From contig CM075765.1 in NCBI GenBank assembly GCA_037974665.1, forward strand, positions 17,683,648 through 17,747,647: a DNA stretch of 64,000 nt, written 5' to 3'. Of the stretch, positions 20,541-64,000 are shown piece by piece (the first letter of the stretch is position 1; each line of letters begins with the position of its first letter). Below the pieces are notes generated by a model. The model was not told the DNA's origin, did not search any database, and saw only the letters and a program-made list of their open reading frames with translations. Source of the stretch: Ehretia macrophylla (lineage: Eukaryota; Streptophyta; Magnoliopsida; Boraginales; Ehretiaceae). The position numbers and the translations under genes are program-made.

Positions 20541-20926
20541 AAAAAATTGTACAAACAATCTCTATTGTTTCTCTAAATTTTTAAATTCGTTCTTATTGTT
20601 TAAAATTAATCAATTAGTTCTTATTATTTTTTAAAATTTTAAATTCATCCCTATTGTTTAAAATTAACTAATTTAGTCCCTATTGTTTCAAAAAAATTTA
20701 ATTTAGTCCCTATTGTTCCCTAAAAGATTTCAATTTAGCCAATTTAGGCAAGAACTAAATTGAAATTTTTTAAGAAACAATAGGAACTAAATTTGCATAT
20801 TTTAAACAATAGGAACAAATTTAATTTTTTTTAAAAAAATAATAGAGATTAAATTGACTAATTTCCTACAATAAGGCCAAATTTAAAATTTTAGGGAAAC
20901 AAAGGGATCATTTGTGCAAAATTCCC
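20541..20926. repeat. foldback repeat, member 1
   Basis: The left half repeats a unit of about 30-35 bp of the type TTTAGTCCCTATTGTTT. The right half carries the same unit inverted (AAACAATAGGAACTAAAT). The outer ends pair as GTACAAAC and GTTTGTGC-like sequence. The whole can fold into one long hairpin. There are no coding frames and it is related to 21031-21490 and 47520-47976. Confidence 0.7.
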
Positions 20927-32798: not shown

Positions 32799-34632
32799 TT
32801 ATTTTCCTGCAAAAAGCAACAATTGTATGATTATAATACGTTTCTCAATCTAATGAATGAGACTTTTCAGGTCAATGTAGAAAGGTGGAAAAAAAATAAA
32901 GAAAGCAAAAGAAAAGGGTAGTGATTAAAGATCTCACCATTTCCTCCAAAACTCCTTCTCAAGAAAGTTAAGAAAATGATAAGTAGAGCTACTCCGGCAA
33001 ATAATCCGATGATTATAGCGAATGTCTTCTCAGATTCACTGTGAGAAGAATCTGTAATGGAAGAAAGTGAGCGAGGGGGATATGTATAATCAGGGGTCGA
33101 TCTATTCTTTGGGCGACCCCACAAAATACCTTAGAGTATCATTATATATTATTAGTCTATAAACTTATTTTGCAGTTACGTATCCATTTATTATAATTTT
33201 CAAATTACTTATTCCCTATTGCAAAATATTCTAAATCCGTTTATATTGAATAATGGTTGAACTAAGCGGGTGATGATGATTAACTCACCAAGAAAAAATA
33301 AATCTATAAGATATCTAGGAAATTTGTGGCAATAGAAGTTTCTAACATAGGTGCAAATTAGACTAAAGTCCAAGGTTTGTGAGTACTATGGGAGCAGTTG
33401 AGGCCAAGTAGTCTTGATAAGGTGCATTTGCTGCTTTTCGGAAGGACCGTAGTAACTCTAAGTTAACACGTACATGGATATCTTTAAATCAAATTAAATC
33501 GAGTCTTATCTTTAGTTATGAACATTTGTTCATTACGGGATAAAAAATAAAATAAAAGAAAGAGAAAGAATGTTCCAAGTTTTCCTCTTTGATTATTATC
33601 AAAGGCAATTAGCCCCAAAACCAATGCAGATAGCAAAATTGACTGAATCCATTTACAATGACTATGAAATACATGACTTTTAATTTGCAGTACTAATACT
33701 TCATAATATGCACTCGCTGTTAATGCGGGAGATCCCGAGATAAATTATCGTGGAAAATGTCCTTTGATATGTTATACACTTTAAGTCTTTTTTGAATTAA
33801 GCTAGACCTATTTGAGTATCAACACTCACTAAATGTCCCATGGCTATTTGCAAAATTATCAGAGTCCTTAATTAGCTTTTAACAATTTTGAAGAGAATTG
33901 CTTACCATGGTTGGAGTTGGCTAAAGCATGAGCTCCACTGGTTGAGTATCTAACATAACACTTGCCCAGAAACACTTCTCCATAAACAGCACCAACACAC
34001 TCATTCTTGAGTCGTCCGATAGCCTCCATCAAACAATCTTGACACTGTCCCATGCTCAAATCCCCTACACACTGCGCCACACCTTGAACATCCTGGGCCC
34101 CACCCACGCGATAGAGCCCACCGGCCCCACCTAAGCCAGCTAGAACAGCATCACGACGGTCCATTGCATCTTCATCAACACCAACCGACGGTCCACATTT
34201 CTTGGACACCACAGTCTTGTCCTCTACACCAATAAATGAAGTGTTATCATACTTCACAAAACACCCTTGTAATTGCATAGCTCCACCACATGTTTGTGAG
34301 CACAAGTTGCCGATTTGAGACACTGCTTGTGCCACACATGTAGCACAATCTGGCATGGATAGGTCACCTCGGCATTGGTACAGGCCGTATACTATGTCGT
34401 GTTGGCTTGAGCCCATGATGCTATACTTGTTGTAGGATGAGTACGTAGCTGAGTTGACTAATGAGGTTAACAATGAATTGAGATTTGACTCGTATGGTGA
34501 GCCTGGTGTGTATTTAATCTGTGAGCATCCACCATAGACGAAAGATTGCAGAGATGAATCTGAACGAATGAGAAGAGGGAAGATTGAGAGAAGAGATATT
34601 ATGGAGAGGAGAAGACGCATTGTTCTGGCCAT
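32799..34632 (-). CDS. plasmodesmata-located DUF26 protein (PDLP6/7/8 type)
   Basis: Three exons, 33906-34632, 32938-33051 and 32799-32806, with GT-AG introns, give 282 residues. PDLPs are type-I membrane proteins at plasmodesmata that affect callose and cell-to-cell traffic. Seen: a signal peptide (residues 1-24), two extracellular DUF26 (Gnk2-like) domains each with C-X8-C-X2-C (C87, C96, C99 and C188, C197, C200), a membrane helix (252-273, AIIIGLFAGVALLIIF) and a short tail RRSFGGNGK. There is no kinase domain, which separates it from cysteine-rich receptor kinases. The tiny last exon codes only the final residues, as in other PDLP genes. The sequence best recalls PDLP7 (At5g37660), the neighbour of Hsp15.7 in Arabidopsis. 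The exact paralogue is not certain. Met5 could be an alternative start. Confidence 0.92.
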
Positions 34633-46498: not shown

Positions 46499-48508
46499 TG
46501 GGAACCTGAGCATTGTTTCATCATAATGCTTCTAATCTTACAGAGATAGTATTCGTGAAAATTATATTTTGATTTGAAGACATAGGCTTTTGCTTCCTAA
46601 TGAGTTTTCTTGATGCGTCAATTTTTCTACCAATAGTGTTTGGTAAACTTAGCTATCCATTAACTATACTTTTTTCTAATCTTCCGTATAGATTTTGTGA
46701 CAAGTCTTTGGTTACATTCTGGTCCATTATTGATTGACACCCAAGTCTTGCTCCTCCACGAGTCTATTTCTGCATGCGTTACCTTAAATCATTTTATTCG
46801 ATCATTTCATATATTGCAAGAGCAATGGCTTATTCTTGCGTGAGATTGACCTTTTGGTTGTGATCGTCAACTGCGTCTATGTGGATATGTGTGAGGGGTG
46901 CACTTACCACCCGGTAAGGACTTAGTACTCACTTTATATTATGTAGTAGGGGTTTAGTACAAAGTTTTTATTCGGCGCGTCATGAGTAAATGCAGTTGCA
47001 ATTTATAGTTGGCTAGCCATTTCGTCCATATATAGTTACGCTGTATGTAACCTTGTTTATCAACGTTTCGTTTTTGCCATAATATATGTATGTATGTATG
47101 TATGTTTGTATGTTTGTATGTTCTTTCTATACCGGATCTTATGTTCTCATCTTATTATGTTCCGCATAGTGATTCTTGTACTAGTATTAGTGGCTAAGTT
47201 GTTTGTGATCTCATATCATTAGCTTGATGTGTCAGTTTTTGTCGCTCTATGGGATTCTTTCTCTAATTGATCTTATGCGTTACATTATCATACATTCCTA
47301 TACACGTGTGGCGAGTCCCATGTCTCATCCTTGGTTACGGTATCATGTGTTTTCAGCGAGCTAGTCATATGTGTAGTTTTGTCTTACTGTCGCGTATTTC
47401 ATTAGACTCTCCTTCCATTTTATTTTAGTTATTTGTTAGTGTCTCTGTTTTCTCGATTAATATTCTCTCGTTCGACCAACCGGTCTTTTATTACCGTATG
47501 GTGAGTTTTGTATTTGGTTTTGGAAACATTTCATATTTAGTTCTTATTATTTATAAAGTATTTCAATTTAGTTTTTATTATTTAAAATATCTCAATTTAG
47601 TCTATATTATTTCACCAAAAATTTTAATTTCATCTCTATTGTTTAATATGTCTCAATTTAGTCCTTATTATTTTTTAAAAAGTTTTAACTTCGTCCTTCT
47701 TATTTTTAAAAAGTTTCAATTTCATCCCTATTATAAAAAGACTAAATTGAAATTTTTTGAGAAACAATAGAGATGGATTTGAAACTTTTTAAAAACAATA
47801 GGGACGAAATTGAAATTTTTTGAAAAATAATAAGGACAAAATTGAAAACTTTCAACAATAGGGATGAAATTGAAACTTTTAGGAAAATAATAGGGACTAA
47901 ATTAAGGCATTTTAAACAATAATGACTAAATTGAGACACTTTACAAACAATAGGGACTAAATGTGAGATTTTTCCTTTGGTTTTCGTCACTTCGTTTAGT
48001 TTTCCTGCATGGTTAGTCATTAGTCTGGATTCAATATCATTTATTTTCTTTTACCTATAAATTTTTGTACACCAACTAGATAGTATCTTCAACTCCTTTC
48101 TCCACCGGGGTATTCTTACTTATCGAGTGGTTTTTTGCACACTTCCTTTTTGTATATCTTTTTGCAGAGGAAAAATAAGATCTTGATCTCATGACTGGTT
48201 AGAGCTTACCTAAGCTGACAACTACATTCGGAATCGTTCAGTGATTTTGAATAAGTTAAGGTTATTCAGTTAATTTATGCTCGGGAGCATTTACAGAATA
48301 ATTATTGATGAATTATGATTAGGAGTTGCACGTGGAATTATTTGAAGAATATGACTTTATTTTTGCTTTTTGGTGTATAGCGTACTTGTTTAGATTAGTT
48401 TGGTTGAAATTGCTTGTGGAATTAGCGTTGCTGGCTTAGGAAATGACTTTTTTAAACTTGCGGCGGTTACGTTTTCAAGATTATCATGAATATTTTCGGG
48501 GCGTGACA
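46499..48508 (+). mobile_element. gypsy-type solo LTR, 2010 bp
   Basis: It starts TGGGAACCTGAGC and ends GGGGCGTGACA, with target repeat AGTGT at 46494-46498 and 48509-48513. The end matches the solo LTR at 57740-60017. It contains a foldback repeat (47520-47976). No coding frame is present. Confidence 0.8.
47520..47976. repeat. foldback repeat, member 3
   Basis: Left-arm units of the type CAATTTAGTCCTTATTATT and right-arm units inverted (AATAGGGACTAAAT), with GGAAACATTTCATATTTAG pairing with the right end. It has the same design as the repeats at 20541 and 21031. Confidence 0.7.
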
Positions 48509-49939: not shown

Positions 49940-50343
49940 TCACCAATACCACAAGTCAATTTGATAACTGTTGAAAGAATAGTTGACACCTATGTTCCAA
50001 GTTGTCCAAAAACTCAAAGCAGTTAAGAAAGAGTTGAAAGATTTCAATGAAAAACACTTTTCTGGTCTTTCTGAAAAATGTTCTGCGCTCAAGGAAAAAA
50101 TCCATAATATCCAGCTGAAAATTATTTCTGGGAAAGCTAGTGCAGAAGACTCCGCAGTTGAAAAAAGTCTCCTTAAGGAATTGGAGAAATCTTCTAATAT
50201 GGAAGAAAGCATTTTGAGACAAGAGTCGAGAGTTGATTGCCTTAAAGGGGGCGACTCGAACTCAAGTTTTTTCTTCAAATCAATTAAAGGAAGACAGTCG
50301 AGAAATGGTATCTCCAGTATCATTAATTCTGCAAGGGTGAGAT
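49940..50343 (+). pseudogene. LINE ORF2 fragment, cut by the CACTA insertion
   Basis: An open stretch from 49983 encodes the linker between endonuclease and reverse transcriptase of plant L1-type LINE ORF2: LKAVKKELKDFNEKHFSGLS, LLKELEK, then RQESRVDCLKGGDSNSSFFF and RQSRNGISSI. The similarity stops at 50343, where the terminal repeat of the CACTA element begins. The rest of the LINE may lie beyond the right window edge. Confidence 0.8.
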
Positions 50344-50356
50344 CACTACAAGAAAA
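50344..50356 (+). repeat. left terminal inverted repeat of the CACTA element
   Basis: CACTACAAGAAAA, identical to the consensus end of plant En/Spm-type elements. The adjacent outer bases GAT would be one copy of the 3-bp target repeat. Confidence 0.85.
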
Positions 50357-50389
50357 CAACGCACAGACAACGAATTTGGGTGACAGATT

Positions 50390-50830
50390 TTTTCCGTAAT
50401 AAATTGGTTACGGATGGGCTACGGAATTGCTACGGGCAATTAATTCCGTCGCCCATCCGTAGCCAACTTCGACCCAGTTGAAATGGAGACAAAAAATAGC
50501 TACGGACAATAATTTTAATTATAAAAAAAATAAAAAATAATATTCCGTAGCCTAGCCGTGACAAATTTGCTACGGACTAGCTACAGATTATTTAATTAAT
50601 GCCGCAACAAAAATCATAAAAAATTCTGTAGTCATGCGGTTGCCAAATAGCTACGGATTGGCTACGGATTATGTATTATTCAAAAAAATGTCCATAAAAA
50701 ATAAAAGACCGGAGGGAAAGATAAAAATAACAAAGTCGGTAGTCCATCCGTGGCAATTGGCTATGGATGGGCTACGGAAAAATGAAATCCGTAGCCAATT
50801 GCCACGGATGGGCTACGGACTTTCAGATAA
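50390..50830 (+). repeat. subterminal repeats of the CACTA element
   Basis: Many copies of GCTACGGA, GGCTACGGATGGGCTACGG and the inverse CCGTAGCC lie in the first 480 bp. In CACTA elements such subterminal arrays bind the TNPA-type protein and pair the ends. Confidence 0.8.
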
Positions 50831-53365
50831 AAATGAGGTTTATCGGTTTTAATTTGAATTACGGTATTTTGATTGCACCTATAACGTAGTAACTTCACTT
50901 GAGATATTAATTTTCCAAATAAAAATAAACTTTGTCCATATTTTATTAGCGTGCGTATTTTAATAAAGAAATCTCCTACAAAGTCATTAGCCGTTTAAAT
51001 CGAAGTTATCACGTCCTCACTTAACATTGCATTAATATTAATAAACGTTCAATCTATGGGTCCAAAAACTCTCATATTGTCTCTAAACTTCATAAACATG
51101 AAAAATATAAATATATAAACACGCTTTAATATATTGTTCATACCTATTAACATGTTAGAATTTATACTATTAGTGGTCCGTAGCCTATCCGTGGCAATTG
51201 GCTACGGATGGGCTGCGGATTTCATTCTTCTATAGCCAATTACAACGGATGGGCTACGGAATTTCAGGTAAAAATGAGATTTATCAGTTTTAATTTGAAT
51301 TATGATATTTTAATTGCACCTACAACGTAGTAAACTTCACTTGAGATATTAGTTTTCCAAATAAAAATAAACTTGGTCCGTATTTTATTAGCGTGCGTAT
51401 TTTAATAGAGAAATCTCCTACGAAATCATTAGCCGTTTAAATCGAAGTTATCACGTCATCACTTAACATTGCGTTAATGTTAATAAACGTTCAATCTAGG
51501 GATCCAAAAACTCTCATATTGTGTCTAAACTTCATAAACATTAAAAATATAAAGATATAAACACGCTTTAATACGTTGTTCCTACCTATTAACAAGTTAG
51601 AATACGTATTATTTATTGTCCGTAGCCTAGCAGTAGCCAATTGGCTATTGCTAGGCTACAGAATTGAACTATTCCGTAGCCCAGGCTACGGATTTAAATA
51701 AAAAACTGAAATTTATTATTTTTCATTTGAATTATGAAATTTTGATTGTACTTACAACGTAATAACTTCACTTGAGTTGAAAATTTTTGAAATAAAAATA
51801 AACTTGGTCCATATTTTATTAACGTGTGTACTTTTATAAGGAAATCAAATGTCGTTTAAATCGAACTTATTATGTTTTCACTTAACATTGTGTTAATATT
51901 AATAAACGTTCAATCTAGGAGTCGAAAAACTATCATATTGTGTCTAAACTTCATAAACAAGAAAAATTTAAAGATATTAACACGTTTTAATACGTTGTTC
52001 GTACCTATTTTGGAAGTTATAATACGTATTATTTATTATCCGTAGCCCAGCAGTAGCCAATTGACTACTGCCGGGCTACGGACCTCAACTAAAAATTGAG
52101 TTTTATTGTTTTTAATTTGAATTTTGGAATTTTAATTACATCTACAACGTAGTAAACTTCACTTGAGTTGAAAATGTTTCAAAAAAAAAAAACTTTGTCC
52201 GTATTTCATTAACGTGTGTACTTTTATAGAAAAATCTCATAGGAAATCATTTGCAGTTTAAATCGAACTAATCATGTTTTCACTTAACATTACATTAAGG
52301 TTAATAAACGTTCAATCTAGGAGTCAGAAAACTATCACATTGTGTCTAAACTTCGTAAACAAGAAAAAATTGAAGATATTAACACGTTTTAATACGTTGT
52401 TCGTACCTATTTTAGAAGTTAAAATACATGTTATTTGTTGTTCGTAGCCCAGCAGTAGCCAATTGGCTACTGCTGGGCTACGGACCTCAACTAAAAATTG
52501 AGTTTTATCATTTTCAATTTAAAATTTGAAATTTTAATTGCACCTACAACGTAGTAAACTTCATTTGAGTTGGAAATGTTTTAAAAAAAAAACTTTGTCC
52601 GTATTTCATTAACGTGTGTACTTTTATAGAAAAATCTCATAGGAAATCATTTGTCGTTTAAATCGAACTAATCATGTTTTCACTTAATATTACATTAAGG
52701 TTAATAAACGTTCAATGTAGGAGTCGAAAAATTATCACATTGTGTCTAAACTTCATAAACAAGAAAAATTTGAAGATATCAACACATTTTAATAAGTTAT
52801 TCGTACCTATTTTGGAAGTTAGAATACGTATTATTTGTTGTCCGTAGCCCAGCAGTAGCCAATTGGCTCTGCTGGGCTACGAACCTCAACTAAAAATCGA
52901 GTTTTATCGTTTTTAATTTGAATTTTGGAATTTTAATTGCACTTACAACGAAGTAAATTTCACTTGAGTTGAAAATGTTAAAAAAAAAACTTTTTCCGTA
53001 GTTCATTAACGTGTGTACTTTTATAGAAAATCCTCATAGGAAATCATTTGCCGTTTAAATTGAACTAATCATGTTTTCACTTAACATTACGTTAAGGTTA
53101 ATAAACGTTCAATGTAGGAGTTGAAAAACTATCACATTGTGTCTAAACTTCATAAATAAGAAAAATTTGAAGATATTAACACATTTTAATATGTTATTTG
53201 TACCTATTTTGGAAGTTAGAATACGTATTATTTATTGTCCGTAGCCCAGCAGTAGCTTACTGCTGGGCTACGAACCTTAACAAAAAATTGAAATTTATAT
53301 TTTTAGTGACGTGGCTATGGATGGGCTACGGACGCATAGATGTCTGTAGCCCATCCGTAGCCATG
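50738..53365 (+). repeat. tandem array of about 400-bp units with hairpins
   Basis: Hairpins start near 50738, 51178, 51620, 52040, 52443, 52841 and 53238, spaced about 440 falling to about 400 bp. Between them lies a conserved AT-rich unit (phrases ACCTACAACGTAGTAAACTT, TTAATAAACGTTCAATCTAG, GTGTCTAAACTTCATAAAC). Hairpins are palindromes centred on AATT; the one at 52443-52482 is a perfect 40-nt palindrome. A final CATCCGT-type hairpin closes the array (53313-53365). No coding frames. Confidence 0.88.
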
Positions 53366-53558
53366 TCATTAAAAAAAAAAAAAAAAAAACTAAGGATGTA
53401 TAAAATATATATACCATAATTTGTCAAACATAGATGTCTATAATAACTAACATAAGAACCATAAGTCGGTACAAGCATACATAAATGGTAAATCAGATAT
53501 CTAGTTTCATATGTAATTTTAATTATAAAAAACTAACAGCAAGTTGCCCAAAATAAAA

Positions 53559-55037
53559 CTATTGTCTCGGTCCACAACCACAACGTCCACATTGACCTCC
53601 ACGACTCCGATTGTTGGTAAACCCAGGGTCTTGTCCAACTCCCTCACCACGAAAGTCATCATCCATGAGTAGAAGCCGACCTTGTATATCCTCAAATTGA
53701 GTTTCAAAATATTGTCGATCTTCTGCTCTACGTTCTTCCATACTCTGAAATTGACTTTCAAAGTATTGACGATCTTCCGCTCTATGTTCTTCCAAAGTCT
53801 GAAATTGAGCTTCAAAATATTGACGATCTGCCGCTTTACGCTCTTTCATTGTTTGAAGTTGAGTTTGCAAATGGTTGAGAGTTCTATCATTGTTGCCCAT
53901 AGAAGTAGAGATATCATTTGATTTTTCCAAAATTAGATCAAATGACGAACTAGAAGCGCGACTAGAACTAGCACCTCTCCTCCTTTCTTGCTCATCTATT
54001 TGTGAGACTCTCTCTGCATGAATATACTCCTCCAGAATATCGGTTTCCATAGGCGTTTCACGATATAAGTTTTCTTTCATCTCAAAATCACCAATATAAC
54101 TCAAATTCTGAACAAAGGTTCTGCTCTTGGTAGTATTAGTTCTAATGAATGATTTGGTTTCCTCTGGTAGTCTATTAAATTCTTCTTGGTTTATATAACT
54201 ATCTTGATACCAATAAGTTTGTTGTCTATTCAGAGATAGCATATTAAGATACCAAGAAGGGTTGAATTTCTTACTTTCAACCCCATCAAATGAAACCCCG
54301 AAGTACTAAAAAATTTGCGTAAGGGCTATTCCATATGGCAAAGATTTGTTGTTCTTAGCCGCATAATTCATGTGACGAACAATCATATACGGTAAGTTCA
54401 CTTGTCTACCACTAACCAACAAATATACAATATAAGCATCTCCTTGAAGTGTCATTTCATCATTAATATTTCTATGTACAAGACAAGAGCCTACAAAGTT
54501 TACCCAAATTTTCTTTAGTATGGGCAACTCTCTTTTATCTAGTGCATTTCCTCTATGAGCAGTTCTATCATACCTTTCCACCCAGAAAAATCTCAAACAA
54601 TTATCTTTGTCTTCGGGCTCCATTCTACTTTCTGGCCAACCAGTGGTGTCATAAGCTTTTACCCTTTCGTTTATCATATTAAAGATTGTAGCTATAATAT
54701 CCGGGGTTAACTCAATATCAACACCTCTAACTCTACTTTTTACAACAACAATTTCATCACTTTCCATATTGGCATAAAATTCACGGATTAAAAGCGGATA
54801 AACAAGACAATGAATATGTAGGAAGTCATACCAACCTTGTTGTTGCACGAATTCAGAAATTCTAGTACCTTGTATGTCCTCGTCTATCAAACACTTTCCA
54901 TACAATATCAGCTTGACTACCTCGTTGTTTGCAAGTGTGGGATGAGGATCCCTATCCAGACTTGGAAGCCTTGTAGAGGTTCTTGCATTGGTTTTCTTAG
55001 GAAGATTTTTTTTCCCACTTTTTCTTGTATCCACCAT
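53559..55037 (-). pseudogene. plant transposon protein with coiled-coil repeats, one in-frame stop
   Basis: On the minus strand a frame starts at 55037 (MVDTRKSGKKN) and runs to a TAG at 54306-54308. It continues in the same frame to 53559, so about 490 codons would be open but for this single stop. The first part (VYPLLIREFYANM, SRVRGVDIELTP, KKIWVNFVGSCLVHRN) resembles the putative plant transposon protein domain (Transposase_32-like). The second part has an 18-residue repeat, three copies of DRQYFE-QFQ-EE-RAE, predicted to form a coiled coil, and a Gly/Cys/Arg-rich end (GGQCGRCGCGPRQ). The gene is divergent from tnp2. It may be a CACTA accessory protein or a captured gene; its role is unknown. 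Confidence 0.7.
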
Positions 55038-55503
55038 GATAAAATATAGAGATTTTGAGCTTTTGGGAAGTGGGTAACGTGACTATGGAAAAAAACTTGA
55101 GATTTAATGGCTAAATTTTGAGTTTAAGACAACTTTACCTGTATTTTGGCTTAGGGCTTGAAAAAATTGGGGTTTGGAAAAACTCTTTGTAGATTTGGAG
55201 GTTTTGCCAAGTGGGTAATGTGATTATGGAAGAAATTTTGAGGTTTAATGGCTAGATTTTGAGAATTTGAGAGAGATTTTTTTGAGTTTTTCTTGCAATG
55301 GAGTTGAAGAAATTAGTGTTTTGAAAAAATATTTGGAGATTTTGATGTTTTGTGGGATGGGTAATGTGATTGTGGAAGAAATTTTGAGATTTAATGGTTA
55401 GTTTTAGTTGATTTTAGAGAGATTTTGAGAGAGTTTTAGAAAAGAAAGGTGAAGAGATGTAAAGTTGGAGAAGAGATGGGATTTGGGGGTAGGTTTGCTG
55501 ATT

Positions 55504-55706
55504 TTTATTAGTTAAAAAAAAAAAAAAAAAATTTCTCCAAGCAGGTCACGGCTCGCCGACCGGCCGGCAGGGCACCCGCCTTGGCTGGCACCTCGTCCGG
55601 CGGGGACAGAAAGGCAGCCTTCCCCCTCGTACCCAAGGCGGGTAACCCGCCGGCGGGCCGTGACCTGCTTGGAAAAAAAATATTAATTTTTTTTAAAACT
55701 AATAAA
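55504..55706. repeat. 203-bp inverted repeat with GC-rich core
   Basis: The outer arms TTTATTAGTT and AAAACTAATAAA flank A-rich stretches. The core 55537-55672 is strongly GC-rich, with left arm CCAAGCAGGTCACGGC and CCCGCCTTGG pairing with right-arm CCAAGGCGGGT and GCCGTGACCTGCTTGG. The surroundings are AT-rich. It sits between the divergent minus-strand gene and tnp2. Confidence 0.88.
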
Positions 55707-55796
55707 GCTTAATGTTTAAAACATTTCCCCTAAATTTTTTCCCAAATTCACTTCACTCTTTTTTTCTCTTACAAAAAACCTCTCTCTCTTAACTCT

Positions 55797-56110
55797 ACTA
55801 CCATCAGCACCATCACCACCACCACCAACAAAGGCTCCATCAGCACCACAAGGTCCTCCATTACCATCATCACCATCTAGGGTACCATCACCATCACCAT
55901 CACCACCACCACCACCACCACCACCACCATCACCACCAAGACCATCATCATCAATGCCACTACCATCACCATAAAGAGCACTACCAAGGGTACTACCATC
56001 ACCACCAACAAAGGCTCCATCACCACCATGTAGGCCACCCTTACCATTACCACCATCTAGGGCTCCATCATCACTTCCAACTCCACCACCATCACCACCA
56101 AAGACACTAT
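55797..56110. repeat. CCA/TCA triplet low-complexity repeat
   Basis: Degenerate CACCAC, CATCAC and ACCACC triplets run for about 310 bp upstream of tnp2. Frames across it read as Gly/Asp-rich on the minus strand or Pro/Ser-rich on the plus strand and are not taken as genes. Confidence 0.8.
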
Positions 56111-56554
56111 CGCCATATCTCTCTCTATTTTTTACTAGTAAGTCTTTTATTATATACATTTTCCTTAATTTTTTTGTCTAGTATAGACATATTTATATAT
56201 GTGTATAATATGTATATGAGATTATGTGTAATTTTGCTTGTTTTTTAGTTGTTCAATTTATTATTTTTGTATTTAATGTTATGTTTAATTCTAATTGTTT
56301 TAAGTGAGGTTTTAAAATAAATATGTGGTAGTGATATTTGTTGTGACTTCTTTGACATCAATGTTGTATTGTTGTGATATTTGTTTTAATTAATTAACAA
56401 TAGATTAACTAGTGGGTCATAAATTATGTTTAAATAATGTCACCACCAAGCACATTACTTAACCGTATATTGTACTATTAATTTCTTTAATGGAATGAAC
56501 ATATATTATGATACAGAAGTTGAGAAAATGGAAACACGCTGACAATAGTGGATA

Positions 56555-59500
56555 AACGATCGATTAACATCTAAGGGAGTATTAAATCCTAAGTTTGTTC
56601 ATGGAGTAGACGAATAATTCATTCCTTTTGCGTGTCGTCAACGAAAGTACATGGATGTAGGCAAAATTAGATGTCCTTGTGCGAAATGTAAGAATTGTGA
56701 CTTTAAGGACCTTTATACTTGTAGACACCATCTCTACTCATGGGGGTTCATGAGGCATTACTATGTTTGGACTTTACACGGGGAGCATGATGACCTCAAT
56801 CAGGATAACAACCATAATGTTGGTGATCATTATGGATATGATGAAGGAAATAGTTATAGGACAATGGTGTTTGATACATTTGGCCCATCAAATGTACCAC
56901 TAATTCCTTATCAACCAATTGAAGAAGAGCCTAATATAGAGTCAAAATATTTTTATGATCTATTAAAAAGTGCAGATGAGCCTTTGTAGAGTGGATGTGA
57001 GGTCACTCATCTGTCAGCTGTGTCTTTGTTGTTGAATATCAAGTCATATTAGAATATATCTGAACATTATTTTAATCAAATTATTGAAGTTATTCGAAGA
57101 ATGTTGCCCAAGGATAACACTTTGCTTGAGAACTACTATAGGTTTAAGAGTGAAATGAGTCCTCTAGGTTTGAGTTACATGAAGATTGACGCGTGTGTAA
57201 ATTGATGTACGTTATATTACAAAGATAGAGATCAACTCAAATCTTGTCCAAGGTGTGGTCACCCACAGTTTAAACCTACAGAAGTTGGGAAAAAAACGTG
57301 GTAAACCAATTGCCTTCAAACGATTGAGGTATCTACCATTAACGTCCAGGTTGACCAAATTATACATGTCTCCCGCAACAGCTAAACATATGCAATGGCA
57401 TTTTAGACACCAAGTTGAGAATGGAAAAATTTGTCATCCATCCGATACTGAAGCATGGAAACACTTTGATAGAACGTATCCAAACTCTGCTTCTGAACCG
57501 AGAAATGTACGTCTTGGACTTTCTTCTGATGGTTTTAACCTATTCAACTCTTCTTCTCAGCCTTATTCTTGTTGGCCTTTGATAATCACACCATACAATC
57601 TTCCACCATGGATATGTATGAAGGATCCTGTAATGTTCTTGACCCTTCTTATTTCTGGGCCAAAGAGTCCGGGAAAGAGTATAAATATATACCTTGAACC
57701 TCTGATTGAAGAGTTGATTAAATTATGGGAAGTAGGAGTTGTAATACCCGAGCCCGGAATGTGAAAATTTCTTGTTTATTATTTTAGAAATTATATTTCC
57801 TTAAACTCTTTTAGAATTAATTGTTACTTCCTTACTGTCGCAACGTGCATTGCATTTAGGGAGCGATAGCTAGAGAACGGTTTTTAGTCCTCAGCAAATA
57901 GTGAAACTAGTATTTAGATGACTTAAATTGTATATTTTAATTGTTGCTAGCTATAATTAATCTTTCCTTAGTTAAAATGGCTTCAAAGTGCAAAAAATAG
58001 TCTAATTGACCAAAGTTTTAAGTTGTTTGACCTAGTGCTTTGACCATTTGACCAAGTCATCACTTAATAAGCTAAAACAAAGCAAAAAAAAAACAAGGCT
58101 GAAAAATCAGAGAGCAGGTCGTGAGCTTCAAAGAGAAAAAAAAAAAACCTTTCAACTTCCAATCGTTCAATCTTCGCGTGAGCTCGTGCGGGGTGGTTTC
58201 CGAGGTGACCAACGTTGTTTTCCTAGCGACTAGGAGTGCCTAAGGTGAGGGAAGCATGTTATTTGCGCATTTAAATGTCAAGTGTATCAACTTTGTGATT
58301 TTTAGATTTTATCCGTAGATTATTTTTTAAAGCGTTTTGATGCATCTAGAATGTTCCTTGGCAATTGTAGAACATGTATTTATAGCTTTTTAACATTTTC
58401 TGCAGTTAAATGTTGAGATTGCAATTTAAATTAGTTGTTGAATAGTGTTTTGTGAATAGTAAACCCTTGAAACGATGAAGTTGCTCCGTTATCCTGTCTG
58501 TTGATGTAGAAATGTGCTAGGTGTGTTAGAATGCCTAAATGCATGGTTTGTTTGGGTTGCGTAATGGAAAAAACGGGAATTAAGCTTTGGTGAAAGTCGG
58601 AGTCGTTTAGGTCGAGTTTGGCATTTTCTCGTTTTGCGTGTTGTCATTGTTTCGGGAGGCCATGGAAGCACTTTTGGTGCGATTATGGCGTTGGTTGGGT
58701 GTTTGGTTGATATAGTTGTAGTTCAAACGAGCAAAGGGGGAAATCGGGACTTTGCGTGAATTCTAGGGTTAAGTAGGGTTTCGGGGTGTTTAGACGTGCC
58801 TTATGGTGACCTAGGAGGATTGGCGCAGTCGGTTTCCAGGACTCGTGGCTCGTTTGGAAATGGTAGGATTTTGATAGTTGGGGCCGATTTGTGTTTTTGC
58901 TTGTTTTCTTGGTTTTATGCCTATAAAATGCTTAGGGTTGCTTGAAATACTTGTTTGAATTGATTTGGATTGAAATGCTTATCAATTGTTGCTATTGCGT
59001 GCGAGAGTAACCTACTTTGTTATTCTCCCACGTGTGGCTTTATCGCTTGTTTATCGCCTTGTATCGAGTCTTGCATTGCATAGTGTCTCGCGCGTGAGTG
59101 ATGGGCCTCTCTGGGTAGCCTCGGGTTGCCAGTGTTGGTTGCTCTAGCTCCGCTGCTATTCCCTCTTCTCGCTTGGGTTGCCTCCCAGGGAGTTTTGGGT
59201 CGTAGGTTGATGGATACTTCCGGGGTATTCCAAACTGGTGTTATAAGGTGGTTTGGGCCGGCGCGTCGTCATCGAATTCGTGTTTGAAAGTTGCTCGTGA
59301 AAAGAGTATCGTATCCTTTGAATGAGTGTTTACAACTTTAAATACTTGCCTTGCTTTATTGATGGCTTTATTATGTCTCTGTATGATATTTGTATGCATT
59401 GCTTGGCTAATTGCATTGCATACTCCTCTCATCTCCATCCTTGAGACCAATTGCCCTCGCTGAGCTATAGTTTTTGCTCATTCCTCTCTATACTATATTT

Positions 59501-62384
59501 TTACAGGAGTAGTTGAAGCAGACCCTCTTGAGGTAATTGAGGAGGAGGAACAGGTGGAGGTTTTCCCGTGATAGCACTTCTTTGCTTTGCTGGTGGTTGG
59601 TTACCAGATTTTGTGCCTGCCTTGCTTGATATGTATATTGCTTGGATGTCGCTTAATTTTGAGGCTTGTAGCCTTGTATGTATTTTCTAGTTGGAGGCCT
59701 CTACGGTCTTATGTTGTATAAGTTGAAAGAATGTAAAGTTGTAAACTTATACTTTTGTGACTAGTAAGGAAATGCATGCTAATGGGATTGATTAGTGGCA
59801 TAAATACTTGTGTAGTATGCATATCATTTTTGGGTTGCAAAGTTGGTTAATAAGAAATGTATGTTTCGAAGAAAGTTGGCTTGTTTGAATTGTTTTATGG
59901 CTTTCGCAAGTATTATGATGATTTTAGGGTTTTCGGATCGTCCGCGGTACAGAGGAGGCTCCGATCGTGTGTCGGGTCCGGGCTTGGCCTTTTGCGGGGT
60001 CGGGTCGGGGCGTGACAGGAGTACCTTGTTATGATGTGTCGTCCAATTTCAATTTTCAATTGAGGGCAGTTTTAATGTGGACAATTAATGATTTCCCAGC
60101 ATATGACATGTTATCTGGCTGGAGTACGCACGGTAAATTTTCATGTCCGTATTGTATGGGATCTTCTCAAGCATTTCAATCGACTGTAGGGAGAAAGAAT
60201 TGTTTCTTTGACTGCCATCGGCAGTTCTTACCAAGCAATCATCCCTTTCGATGAGACAAGAAGAACTTTCAAAAAAATATGTTAGAGAGATCAGACCCTC
60301 CGCCGAGATTGAGTGGTGATGATATATGGGAAGAAGTTTGAGATCATCCGACTATAAATGAATTGGGTAAAGATAAAATAGATGGTTTTGGAAGAAAGCA
60401 TAACTGGCTAAAAAAAAGCATCTTTTGGGATTTGCCTTATTGGCGGTCACAGCTTGTGCGTCATAATCTAGACATCATGCATATAGAGAAGAATGTTTTT
60501 GATAATGTCTTTAACACTATAATGAACGTAAAGGGGAAGACAAATGATACAAAAAATTCAAGGGCTGATATTGAGAGAATTTGTGATTGTCATGAATTAT
60601 GCATTAGAGATGGCGTTATGAAAATGGTCGTGCATACTCTTCCGATTCCAGCTAGGAAAGCAATTTTGGAGTGGGTCAAAGAGTTAAAATTTCTTGATGG
60701 ATATGCATCAAATATAGCAAGGTGTGTTGACATGAACAATTTAAAGTTGTCACATATGAAGAGCCATGATTGCCATGTATTTATAGAGAGATTGCTTCCT
60801 ATAACCTTACGAGAGTTATTGCCAAATAGTGTATGGGAACCTTTTACCGAACTAAGCTTATTTTTTAGAAACATTTGTTGCTCGTCTCTTGAAATAATTG
60901 ACCTTGAAAGAATGCAACAAAATATTGTGATTACCCTTTGTAAGGTGGAAAAGATCTTACCTCCAGCCTTCTTTGGCTCAATGGAGCATTTGCCAATACA
61001 CTTGGTTCATGAAGCAATTTGCGGCGGTCTTATACAATATTGGTGGATGTACCATTTTGAGAGGTTTTTGCAAGTTTTGAAGAGAAAGGTGAAGAATAAA
61101 GCACATGTTGAGGGATCTATATGTGAAGCATATCTTATCCTTGAAACAGTGACATTTTGTTCATATTATTTCGAACCGCACGTGCAATCAAAAACAAGAA
61201 ACATCGGTCAAAATGAAGAGTTCGTGGATGCGGATTACCCTGAACGGTGTTTACCCATACTCAAGCATCCAGGTCGTCCGATGGAGAAGATGATCTCTAA
61301 AGATTTAGACGATCGAGATTTCAATGCTGCTCACTTGTGTGTTTTGATGAACTGCGAAGAAGTGTCCCCATATATTAAGTAAGTTTATGACTCAACTTTT
61401 TAGTTCTATTAAAGATCTTATATATATAATCCACTAATTAATACTATACAGGACGTTTGAGGATGATCTTCGAATAGAGAATCCATCATTTACTGATTCA
61501 CAAATCAATAACAACATTGAGAAATTTTTCCTGACTTGGTTACGTTACCATGTTAGTATTACTACTTTTTTAACGTCCCTAATAATATATTCGATTCATT
61601 CCAACCTTGACGCTTTCTATTGTCCCTAATTTACCCCTTTCAGCTTACCCACAATAACATTTTGGATGATCGCATGAAATGTCTTTCAATAGGTCCAAGT
61701 AAGGTGGTCAGTACATGGTCAAAGTACTTGGTGAATGGGTACAGATTTCACACTTTGGAGTATGGATCTTCAAAGACAACAATGAATAGTGGAGTTACTG
61801 TGAAAGGGACAATGCCTGATAATGAGAAGAGTGATTATTATGGTCTGTTGACTGATATTATCGAGTTAGAATACCATAATGGAACTTTGCAGCACACAAG
61901 AGTTGTCCTTTTGAAGTGTTAGTGGTTTGATTCTCACAATGATAAGGGATTAAAGATTCATCTGAAATATCGCTTGATTGATATAAATGTGAAGAAAAGA
62001 TACCCAAAGTATGACCCCTTTGTCTTAGCCGAACATGCATATCAAGCATATTACATCAGGTATCTTGATACTAAGAGAGAACGGGCAGCTTGGTCAGCTG
62101 TATGCAAAATCAGATCCAGGAACCAATTTGATAAGGAGTTAAACAATGATGATAATGATAAAGATGAACAGTTGACTTTTCAGTCCGATGAGATGAACGT
62201 GGCATTGGTACAATCAGATGATCATGATGATGTCGTATTGCGTTGTCTTGAATCAAGTGAATGCATTGCTGTGGTTAGAGATGTAGAAGAAGAGCACGAG
62301 GACAATGCCCAAAATGATGATGAAGATCATGAAAGTGACTCTGATAATGACATAGAATCTGAATACAATGAATTATCTGATTGA
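56555..62384 (+). pseudogene. CACTA tnp2-type transposase, broken
   Basis: Domains in order: Transpos_assoc zinc-like region (CPCAKCKNC, CRHHLYSWGF, 56660-56770), the tnp2 catalytic region (57520-57739 GLSSDGFNLF, SQPYSCWPLIITPYNLPPW; 60023-60300 WTINDFPAYDMLSGWSTHG; HNLDIMHIEKNV at 60450), DUF4218 (60790-61150, LPITLRELLPNSVW, MEHLPIHLVHEA) and DUF4216 (61830-62100). Introns with GT-AG ends are likely at 61379-61451 and 61552-61643. The coding is cut at 57739/60023 by a solo LTR. In-frame stops occur near 56613, 56987, 57049, 57204, 60252, 60339 and 61919. A normal copy would cut and insert CACTA elements; this one cannot. Confidence 0.9.
57740..60017 (+). mobile_element. gypsy-type solo LTR, 2278 bp, inside tnp2
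   Basis: It starts TGTAATACCCGAGCC and ends GGGGCGTGACA, with target repeat GGAGT at 57735-57739 and 60018-60022. Removing the LTR and one target copy restores a continuous tnp2 frame across the junction (WEVGV then PCYDVSS). No internal region or second LTR is present. Confidence 0.93.
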
Positions 62385-62540
62385 GATTTTGTACTTATAA
62401 ATTCAATATTTTGTATGTCAACTGAATGTCAATTGTATGATTGATAATCGAAAAATATAATGAAAAGTGGTTATAGTATCTCTTCATTCATAGAATATAT
62501 TGTACATCTCTTTGTATCTTATGGTTTTTTTGTAGCAATC

Positions 62541-63720
62541 ATGGTTAGAGCTGGTAAACCCAGGGCAGATAATACACAATCTGGCATGCCATCAACTTCG
62601 TCCTCCGCAGCCTGTGGTGAAGCTGATAGTGAGTCCTCTACTGCTACAGGGTCGTCAGTTCGTTCCACCGGACTATCTGCCCCTTTGTGTGACATCAGAG
62701 TAACTAACAAGGATCGTCATAATAATACCACGCCCACGCCCAGTGTCCAGCAGGAAACGGAACATCTAGAATCATCATCACATTCATCTGGCACAACAAA
62801 TTGACAGGGTATGGGATTCAAGTCACTCGAGCAGTGCGCCACATGGTTGGAGGATAGACGTACTCACGTTCGATTATATAATAACGGGTGAAATTACAAT
62901 TAAATTAAATGATAGAGCAATTACTTTGATTGTTTGTTATTAGTTCTTGAAGTTATAATAAGGTAATGCAAGTGACACTAACTTATATAATTGATATACT
63001 TATTAACAGATTTGTACCTGCTTCGGTAGTAAGAGATTTTAAGTCAATATTTGCAGGCGGATTCAAAGAACCTTGGATTACTTATGGAAAAATTCCGAAC
63101 GATGTTAAAGACCAATGGTTTTGCTCTTTTGAGGTTTTTATAAACATTAATGCAGTCAATATCTATTATATTATACACTTGTACATTTATACGTGAGTAT
63201 TCAATTAACACATGTTCGCATTTACCTATATTTGTCGTTGTCGAGAAATTATAAGTGGCACCCATGTGATAGGGCACCCATCAACCATTGCTTCCATTAT
63301 AAGCCGGCGGAGAGAATGAAAGACCAATTGGCTAAGGCCTGTAAATTTGACAAGCCTCCTAAGTGGATGACATTAGATAATTGGGAACAAATGCAAGTAA
63401 GATGGCGTGAACCAAAATAGATAGATAAATCAAATGCGGCCAAGAAAAATAGGGGAAAAAATCAATCGATACATTACACGGGTGCCACCTCCTTTCATGA
63501 GGTTATGAGAAGGATAGTATGCAACTTAAATTTAATAGCCGTTTAAATTTGTCTATCTTACTATTCTAGTTTTTGAGTAATTACTACTTATGAAGTTAAT
63601 AACGTAGGCGGACACAGTAAACGCCCTTGTCTATAAAGTTGATGTTTTCAAGGTCGCTCATAGTAAAGGGGAGGGTGATGGTATACAATTCTCTGATCCA
63701 AAGGCTGCTCAAACGATAGT
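62541..63720 (+). pseudogene. Transposase_24-type CACTA protein, fragmented
   Basis: Exon-like pieces in order: 62541-62801 (Ser/Thr-rich, MVRAGKPRADNT), about 63012-63134 (ASVVRDFKSIFAGGFKEPW, NDVKDQWFCSFE), about 63250-63500 (RMKDQLAKACKFDKPPKWM, NAAKKNRGKNQSIHYTGATS) and about 63610-63718 (VDVFKVAHSKGEGDG). The order matches plant Transposase_24 (Ptta/En/Spm) proteins, thought to bind the element ends as TNPA does. Stops lie at 62802 and 63418 within or between the pieces. The 3' end may be outside the window. Confidence 0.75.
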
Positions 63721-64000
63721 AAGTATTATACAGTGTATTACTTTTACTGTCGATTAATTTTGTTAAATTTATATAATTTTATGTTAAGTTTAAGTTGCTA
63801 CTTTTAGTTTAAAATGTTATAAAAATTGAATTTCATAAATCTCTTTTGTAATGTGTAGGTTGTTAGACTTATGTATTTCATTATGAGAATTGTATCTATA
63901 TGATTATGTTGAAGTGGTTGTTACAGACGACATATCATTTGGTTGTTTGTTGGAGACCCAGGATTGTAAATTTGGAATATTTGTGATTGTATGTTGGTTG

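Follow-up and report, generated by a model that had tools for sequence, protein, structure and literature searches.

When the two arms of a hairpin change together, is the fold being maintained? Covariation of this kind is often taken as proof of a functional fold, and the question is raised here by a row of hairpins from Ehretia macrophylla, lying in a stretch of 64,000 nucleotides (hereafter the window) that, from its domains and open reading frames, appears to be transposon-rich plant nuclear DNA. The original prediction for this locus was that matching changes on both arms imply that the fold, or copying between the arms, is maintained. Using the spacers between the palindromes as a built-in yardstick of divergence for testing covariation, we find that the covariation consists of a few old matched steps, not of a fold visibly kept by continuing selection, and that a small number of copying events between arms, together with tandem duplication, accounts for it better.

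Judged by its sequence features, the palindrome array belongs to a decayed CACTA (En/Spm) element and lies in its 5' subterminal region; the recognizable parts of the element outside the array itself are listed here.

50344–50356, + strand: 5' terminal inverted repeat of the CACTA (En/Spm) element, CACTACAAGAAAA, containing the sole exact CACTACAAGAAA in the window
50401–50734, no strand assigned: pre-array subterminal region with three further palindromes of the GGCTACGGA motif, seen as inverted pairs
50406/50445: upstream palindrome, 2 of 20 arm positions mismatched, CATCCGT type
50544/50568: upstream palindrome, 6 of 18 arm positions mismatched, decayed
50625/50649: upstream palindrome, 7 of 20 arm positions mismatched, decayed
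56618–62384, + strand: remains of the transposase gene as a whole, from Pfam matches
56618–56989, + strand: open reading frame with a Pfam match to Transpos_assoc
57201–57764 and 59928–60254, + strand: open reading frames with Pfam matches to two pieces of Transposase_21/tnp2
60342–61382, + strand: Pfam match to DUF4218
61923–62384, + strand: Pfam match to DUF4216

Searching both strands of the window for CACTACAAGAAA, we found a single exact match, at 50344. No convincing inverted partner of this terminus was found within the window, the one 2-mismatch match to it, at 55300 on the − strand, lying within a 146-bp tandem repeat; the 3' terminus of the element was likewise not found in the window and may lie outside it. 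The basic subterminal motif is GGCTACGGA, frequently doubled as GGCTACGGATGGGCTACGGA. Allowing at most one mismatch, 33 of its 43 matches in the window fall in the 3.06 kb from 50344 to 53400, a density of 10.8 per kb as against 0.16 per kb elsewhere in the window, and these 33 copies, with their inverted pairs, make up the direct and inverted short subterminal repeats characteristic of CACTA elements. A tnp2-type transposase is indicated by two Pfam matches to Transposase_21 (1.1e-46 and 5.1e-22), and the tnp2-family domains lie downstream of the terminus at 50344 on the same strand. Transposase_21 is split between two open reading frame pieces about 2 kb apart (57201–60254, + strand), which looks like the result of a decayed or interrupted gene, or of an intron there. 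The array had originally been placed beside CACTA subterminal repeats; we place it inside the subterminal region.

Several other features of the window were observed in passing. The element appears to be inserted within an open frame at 49983–50343 (+ strand) that has no Pfam match at 0.01 and that, by eye, looks like sequence flanking a plant LINE reverse transcriptase. On the opposite strand, between array and transposase, are two open reading frames (53559–55037, − strand), one with a Pfam match to Transposase_32 (2.9e-21), the other with no Pfam match at 0.001 and holding a 54-bp tandem repeat (53694–53871); the 146-bp tandem repeat (55049–55426, 2.6 copies) adjoins the Transposase_32 frame. 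At two places farther away (20562–20831 and 47524–47962), a tandem array of about 30/60 bp is followed immediately by a similar array with what appear by eye to be reverse-complement units, and these could form long inverted structures. An open reading frame at 33868–34632 (− strand) has two stretches matching Stress-antifung (4.9e-32) and is possibly a host gene.

The array itself contains seven palindromes with 20-bp arms (50735–53275) and an eighth after them, the arms being composites of GGCTACGGA. Seven hairpins at about 400-bp steps had been predicted, and they are present, the steps between successive palindromes being 441, 442, 420, 401, 401 and 397 bp. Each unit opens with a palindrome of about 43–46 bp (shorter in H7), as follows.

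50735–51175, + strand: unit 1, with H1 (50736–50778), an inverted second copy extending to 50823 (37-bp arms) and the spacer
51176–51617, + strand: unit 2, with H2, a degenerate second copy and the spacer
51618–52037, + strand: unit 3, with H3 (CAGCAGT type, T-A at pair 10), a short second palindrome (51674–51691) and the spacer
52038–52438, + strand: unit 4, with H4 and the spacer, no second palindrome
52439–52839, + strand: unit 5, with H5 (one arm mismatch) and the spacer
52840–53236, + strand: unit 6, with H6 (a one-base deletion in the right arm) and the spacer
53237–53310, + strand: unit 7, truncated, with H7 lacking the loop region and about 30 bp of spacer
about 53313–53365 (at its widest 53310–53368), no strand assigned: closing palindrome H8, CATCCGT type, arms in the opposite order

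A second, shorter copy follows the palindrome in units 1–3 and is absent from units 4–7, which mostly accounts for the shorter step of the later units. Identity among the six spacers (15 pairs) ranges from 0.767 (U1–U6) to 0.926 (U5–U6), and their tree, ((U1,U2),(U3,(U4,(U5,U6)))), separates U1 and U2 from U3–U6 with a support of 100 and groups U4–U6 and U5–U6 with supports of 100 and 79, respectively. The branching order agrees with the order of the hairpin types, and the unit structure and spacer tree together carry what we read as the pattern of stepwise tandem duplication. In the remainder of the window (1–50734 and 53401–64000) we found no convincing copy of the array spacer; the better matches there were mostly to the upstream subterminal palindromes, and the rest were short and weak. 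Exact searches with the arm patterns returned 0 matches in each of two collections, viral_contigs and genome_contigs, a result that is uninformative for a plant element.

The palindromes fold well. As RNA, H1–H7 have z-scores of −7.2 to −11.7 relative to dinucleotide shuffles, with 0 of 200 shuffles as stable as the hairpin in each case, and H8 has a z-score of −10.2. The three perfect inverted repeats found in the whole window (arms of at least 14, at least 4 G+C, loop of up to 30) are all inside the array. Counted strictly, H1 to H7 contain 4, 3, 2, 2, 1, 1 and 1 arm mismatches, so none is a perfect hairpin. For the mismatch, simulation and permutation counts the two loop-side bases of H7 were treated as loop and excluded from the arms, and from these counts and those of covariation the second palindromes after H1, H2 and H3 were left out.

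The shift from CATCCGT-type to CAGCAGT-type stems on which the original prediction rested is real, except that H2 reads TATCCGT; exact CATCCGT occurs on the + strand of the window at three places, 50454, 50745 and 53352. The matched pairs quoted in support, CCTAGC with GCTAGG in H3 and CCCAGC with GCTGGG in H5, are also correct. Among the 20 arm pairs, 3 have changed on both sides, 6 have changed on one side only, 3 vary only through non-pairs and 8 are invariant, and 95.6% of 135 cells are paired when G-U is allowed. The double-changed pairs, numbered from the outer end, are 10, 12 and 14. Pair 10 is T-A in H3, C-G in five other hairpins and T.G in H2; pair 12 is T-A in H1 and H2 and G-C in H3–H7; pair 14 is C-G in H1 and H2 and A-T in H3–H7. 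The fixed switch affects only the inner arm half, where CCGTAGCC becomes CAGTAGCC and the preceding T becomes G, and the outer half remains CCGTAGCC in most arms. Since pairs 12 and 14 have each changed only once among the seven hairpins, on a single deep branch, counts of sequences overstate the number of events. Each arm of the upstream palindrome 50544/50568 carries T, G and C at positions 10, 12 and 14 (in a register set by two hand-placed gaps), and the states at which both arms agree form a ladder, CTC, TGC, TGA, CGA, which points to about three matched steps rather than one. It counts against this that the neighbour 50625/50649 has arms that disagree at positions 12 and 14 (AGG and ATC). 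From the ladder, the sequences suggest about three old matched steps that were later spread by duplication.

How could both arms have taken these steps? We consider it probable that the palindromes were amplified as a unit of about 400 bp in the CACTA end and that their arms were occasionally homogenised by template switching. In neutral simulations, with 3000 runs for each setting, the arms evolved on the spacer tree, starting as a perfect palindrome; the root position, the base frequencies and the place of H7 were assumed. A first simulation, with independent arms, covered two base-frequency settings, two roots and four rates (scales 0.75, 1.0, 1.5 and 2.0), and an arm-copying simulation covered one base-frequency setting, one root and two rates (0.75 and 1.0). 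With a joint statistic and copying nodes that were picked after the data were seen, not one of the independent-arm runs (3000 at scale 0.75 and another 3000 at scale 1.0) combined at most 14 mismatches with a minimum of two transversional double changes; the fraction of runs that did so was 0.004–0.008 with arm copying at one node, 0.039–0.052 at two nodes and 0.146 (0.75) or 0.182 (1.0) at three. Few mismatches together with three double changes of any kind arose in fractions of 0.0007 and 0 of runs with independent arms, and of 0.35 and 0.43 with three copying nodes. Multibase matched changes beyond the reach of independent mutation, the mark of template switching, are thus seen at both rates by a post hoc statistic. 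We stress that, with three matched pairs in a single array, this is one case of arm homogenisation, however neat; and since the arms differ strongly in two of the three palindromes upstream, homogenisation was at best sporadic.

The matched switch could instead come from a diverged CACTA copy whose palindrome was already of the CAGCAGT type and was imported whole by gene conversion or recombination. The neighbouring pairs 12 and 14 switch jointly, both by transversion, and none of the seven hairpins is caught half-changed, as an import would have it; two CACTA subfamilies with diverged motifs are also described as co-existing in soybean (PMC2613891). However, the spacer tree splits as the hairpins do, which makes a separate import unnecessary, and the upstream palindrome 50544/50568 carries the intermediate TGC on both arms. 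We regard an import as unlikely.

It is also possible, though we think it decidedly improbable, that the fold itself, as an RNA hairpin or a cruciform, is selected, a change in one arm being retained only if compensated in the other. The strong folding of the hairpins fits this, as does the shortage of mismatches: simulated from a CATCCGT root at scale 1 under arm-like base frequencies, neutral independent arms predict 28.9 mismatched cells versus 14 of 134 observed (P = 0.026), although at scale 0.75 under the same settings so few are less surprising (P = 0.11); with spacer base frequencies the shortage is stronger. The covariation that had been claimed survives shuffling of the column pairs in part, in that 0 of 500 shuffles reach the observed pairing, the covariation score or the number of cells changed on both sides, but 31 of 500 reach the number of pair types and 89 of 500 reach three double-changed pairs; moreover, this control ignores the relatedness of the hairpins. 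Against a selected fold, the arms diverge as fast as the spacers: their mean pairwise differences are 0.173 and 0.153 (ratio 1.13), and the arm value lies inside the range of 39-site spacer samples (0.080–0.229 around 0.150), a range so wide that modest constraint on the arms is still compatible with it. The arms are also richer in G+C than the spacers, and a possibly higher mutation rate in them could mask some constraint. Compensatory change in a structural RNA should be accompanied by constraint relative to the neutral flank, which this ratio does not reveal; Rfam at gathering scores gave no match in the whole window, and on this ground a known structural RNA was rejected.

Re-pairing of the arms bears on the same question. 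Taking 11 palindromes together, arms are closer to their own partners than to others (0.0003 of 20000 re-pairings as low), and the same is true of the seven hairpins (0.0079 of 5040). Within classes, however, the similarity of partners does not exceed that of non-partners: in H4–H7, 16 of 24 re-pairings do as well (0.667), as do 24 of 24 in the four of CATCCGT type (50406/50445, H1, H2 and H8; 1.0), the fraction being 0.14 of 720 when 50544/50568 and 50625/50649 are added to these four. Partner similarity therefore lies between the classes and not within them, the groups being small. A continuing excess of partner similarity is absent from both classes, and occasional copying events do not require one. 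Mismatches in H1 and H2 are G.T in 6 of 7 cells, as selection on a fold might leave them; over all hairpins there are 8 G.T, 5 A.C and 1 other on the + strand, and the 8:5 split (P = 0.58) does not clearly favour wobble pairs on one transcribed strand. In H6 the one-base deletion has no compensating change. Selection on the fold is thus unsupported by the comparison of arm and spacer rates, by the partner permutation and by the orientation of wobbles. That arms might differ independently had been named beforehand as evidence against upkeep, and this is what the youngest units display, all 5 mismatched cells in H4–H7 being one-sided, whereas the matched pair 10 of H3 is the single later change to point the other way. 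What stands of the original prediction is copying between the arms, as a few old events (0 of 3000 runs without it, 15–18% with three nodes); continuous upkeep has no support.

Chance, in the form of independent arm mutations inherited through tandem duplication, seems to us very improbable. At least three double changes are not very rare under independent arms: over all settings P is 0.004–0.11 at scales 0.75 and 1.0 (for example 0.022 at scale 1 with arm-like frequencies and a CATCCGT root, and 0.04 and 0.11 at scales 0.75 and 1.0, respectively, with spacer frequencies), and at scales 1.5 and 2.0 they are common (0.10–0.61). The shuffles that reach three double-changed pairs tell in its favour too, and recent changes do look independent. 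Yet a mismatch count as low as this is almost never reached at scales 1.5 and 2.0 (P at most 0.001), and at the two lower scales the joint outcomes given above are all but absent from the independent-arm runs. Finally, an adaptive switch, in which the inner half-sites changed on both arms along with the specificity of a TNPA-like protein, is scarcely credible: the change touches only the arm's inner half and CACTA motifs and binding proteins are described as varying between families (PMC2613891), but the arms lack constraint relative to the spacers, both palindrome types stand together in one element end and no binding protein was found.

We therefore return to amplification with occasional copying between arms, and propose the following course. 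Inverted pairs of GGCTACGGA would most likely be binding sites of the element's TNPA-like protein, a role made plausible by their likeness to TNPA-type sites. One palindrome and about 350 bp of neighbouring DNA would have been tandemly duplicated stepwise, and deletion of the second palindrome, to judge from the unit structure, would have reduced a unit of about 441 bp to one of 400 bp. On a few occasions before and during this amplification, one arm would have served as template for the other, the simplest route being template switching within the hairpin during replication; pairs 10, 12 and 14 would owe their matched changes to such copying, duplication would then spread the changes, and afterwards the arms would have mutated independently. 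The array presents a CACTA end gaining subterminal palindromes in tandem units of about 400 bp. In a bolder version, which we hold to be very improbable, the element multiplies its binding palindromes in a tandem unit, and template switching changes the two half-sites of a palindrome simultaneously. If it were true, a new binding specificity could arise in a single step and then multiply, and an element end with both palindrome types would capture such a change in progress.

Separately, the ingredients of this proposal are already in print: stem-loops at CACTA ends, tandem arrays in CACTA elements and compensation by template switching. A tandem unit bearing subterminal palindromes was not found in the parts of the open-access literature covered by our search, and of 39 matches to CTACGGA in the CACTA transposon literature the 12 listed were unrelated by title. 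Stem-loops are described in soybean CACTA subterminal regions, where the motifs are presented as TNPA-like protein sites, a point that the same paper says remains to be determined (PMC2613891). Like soybean Tgmt*, Tgm1 and TgmR*, as characterized in the accounts cited, the present element combines a CACTA end, a tnp2 transposase and direct and inverted short subterminal motifs capable of forming stem-loops (PMC2613891, PMC4219821). Tgmt* is reported to have a 17-bp motif of two sub-motifs and 14 stem-loops, and Tgm1 a motif of 17–20 bp (PMC2613891, PMC4219821); the motif here, GGCTACGGA, differs from the soybean motifs given there, and whereas Tgmt* has its palindromes crowded into the 159 and 732 bp nearest its ends, seven are carried here on a tandem unit of about 400 bp over about 2.6 kb.

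The CACTA element Jozin of Chenopodium quinoa likewise has a tandem array inside the element towards one end (PMC8978399). Its monomers are 171 bp long, with 32.5 copies near the 3' end of the element described, and the main text of that account uses neither the word palindrome nor the word hairpin (PMC8978399); the array reported here has units of about 400 bp with palindromes, at the 5' end. Also in Chenopodium, a satellite family has been traced to a tnp2 fragment (PMC7320549). Template switching is described as homogenising the arms of inverted repeats and producing multibase compensation (PMC8794818, PMC8604942), and the changes at this locus resemble such quasipalindrome mutation in that multibase matched changes bring the arms into agreement. 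The cases in those papers come from RNA genes, mainly rRNA, and from yeast coding DNA, whereas ours would place the process in a transposon end, through events deduced from one array.
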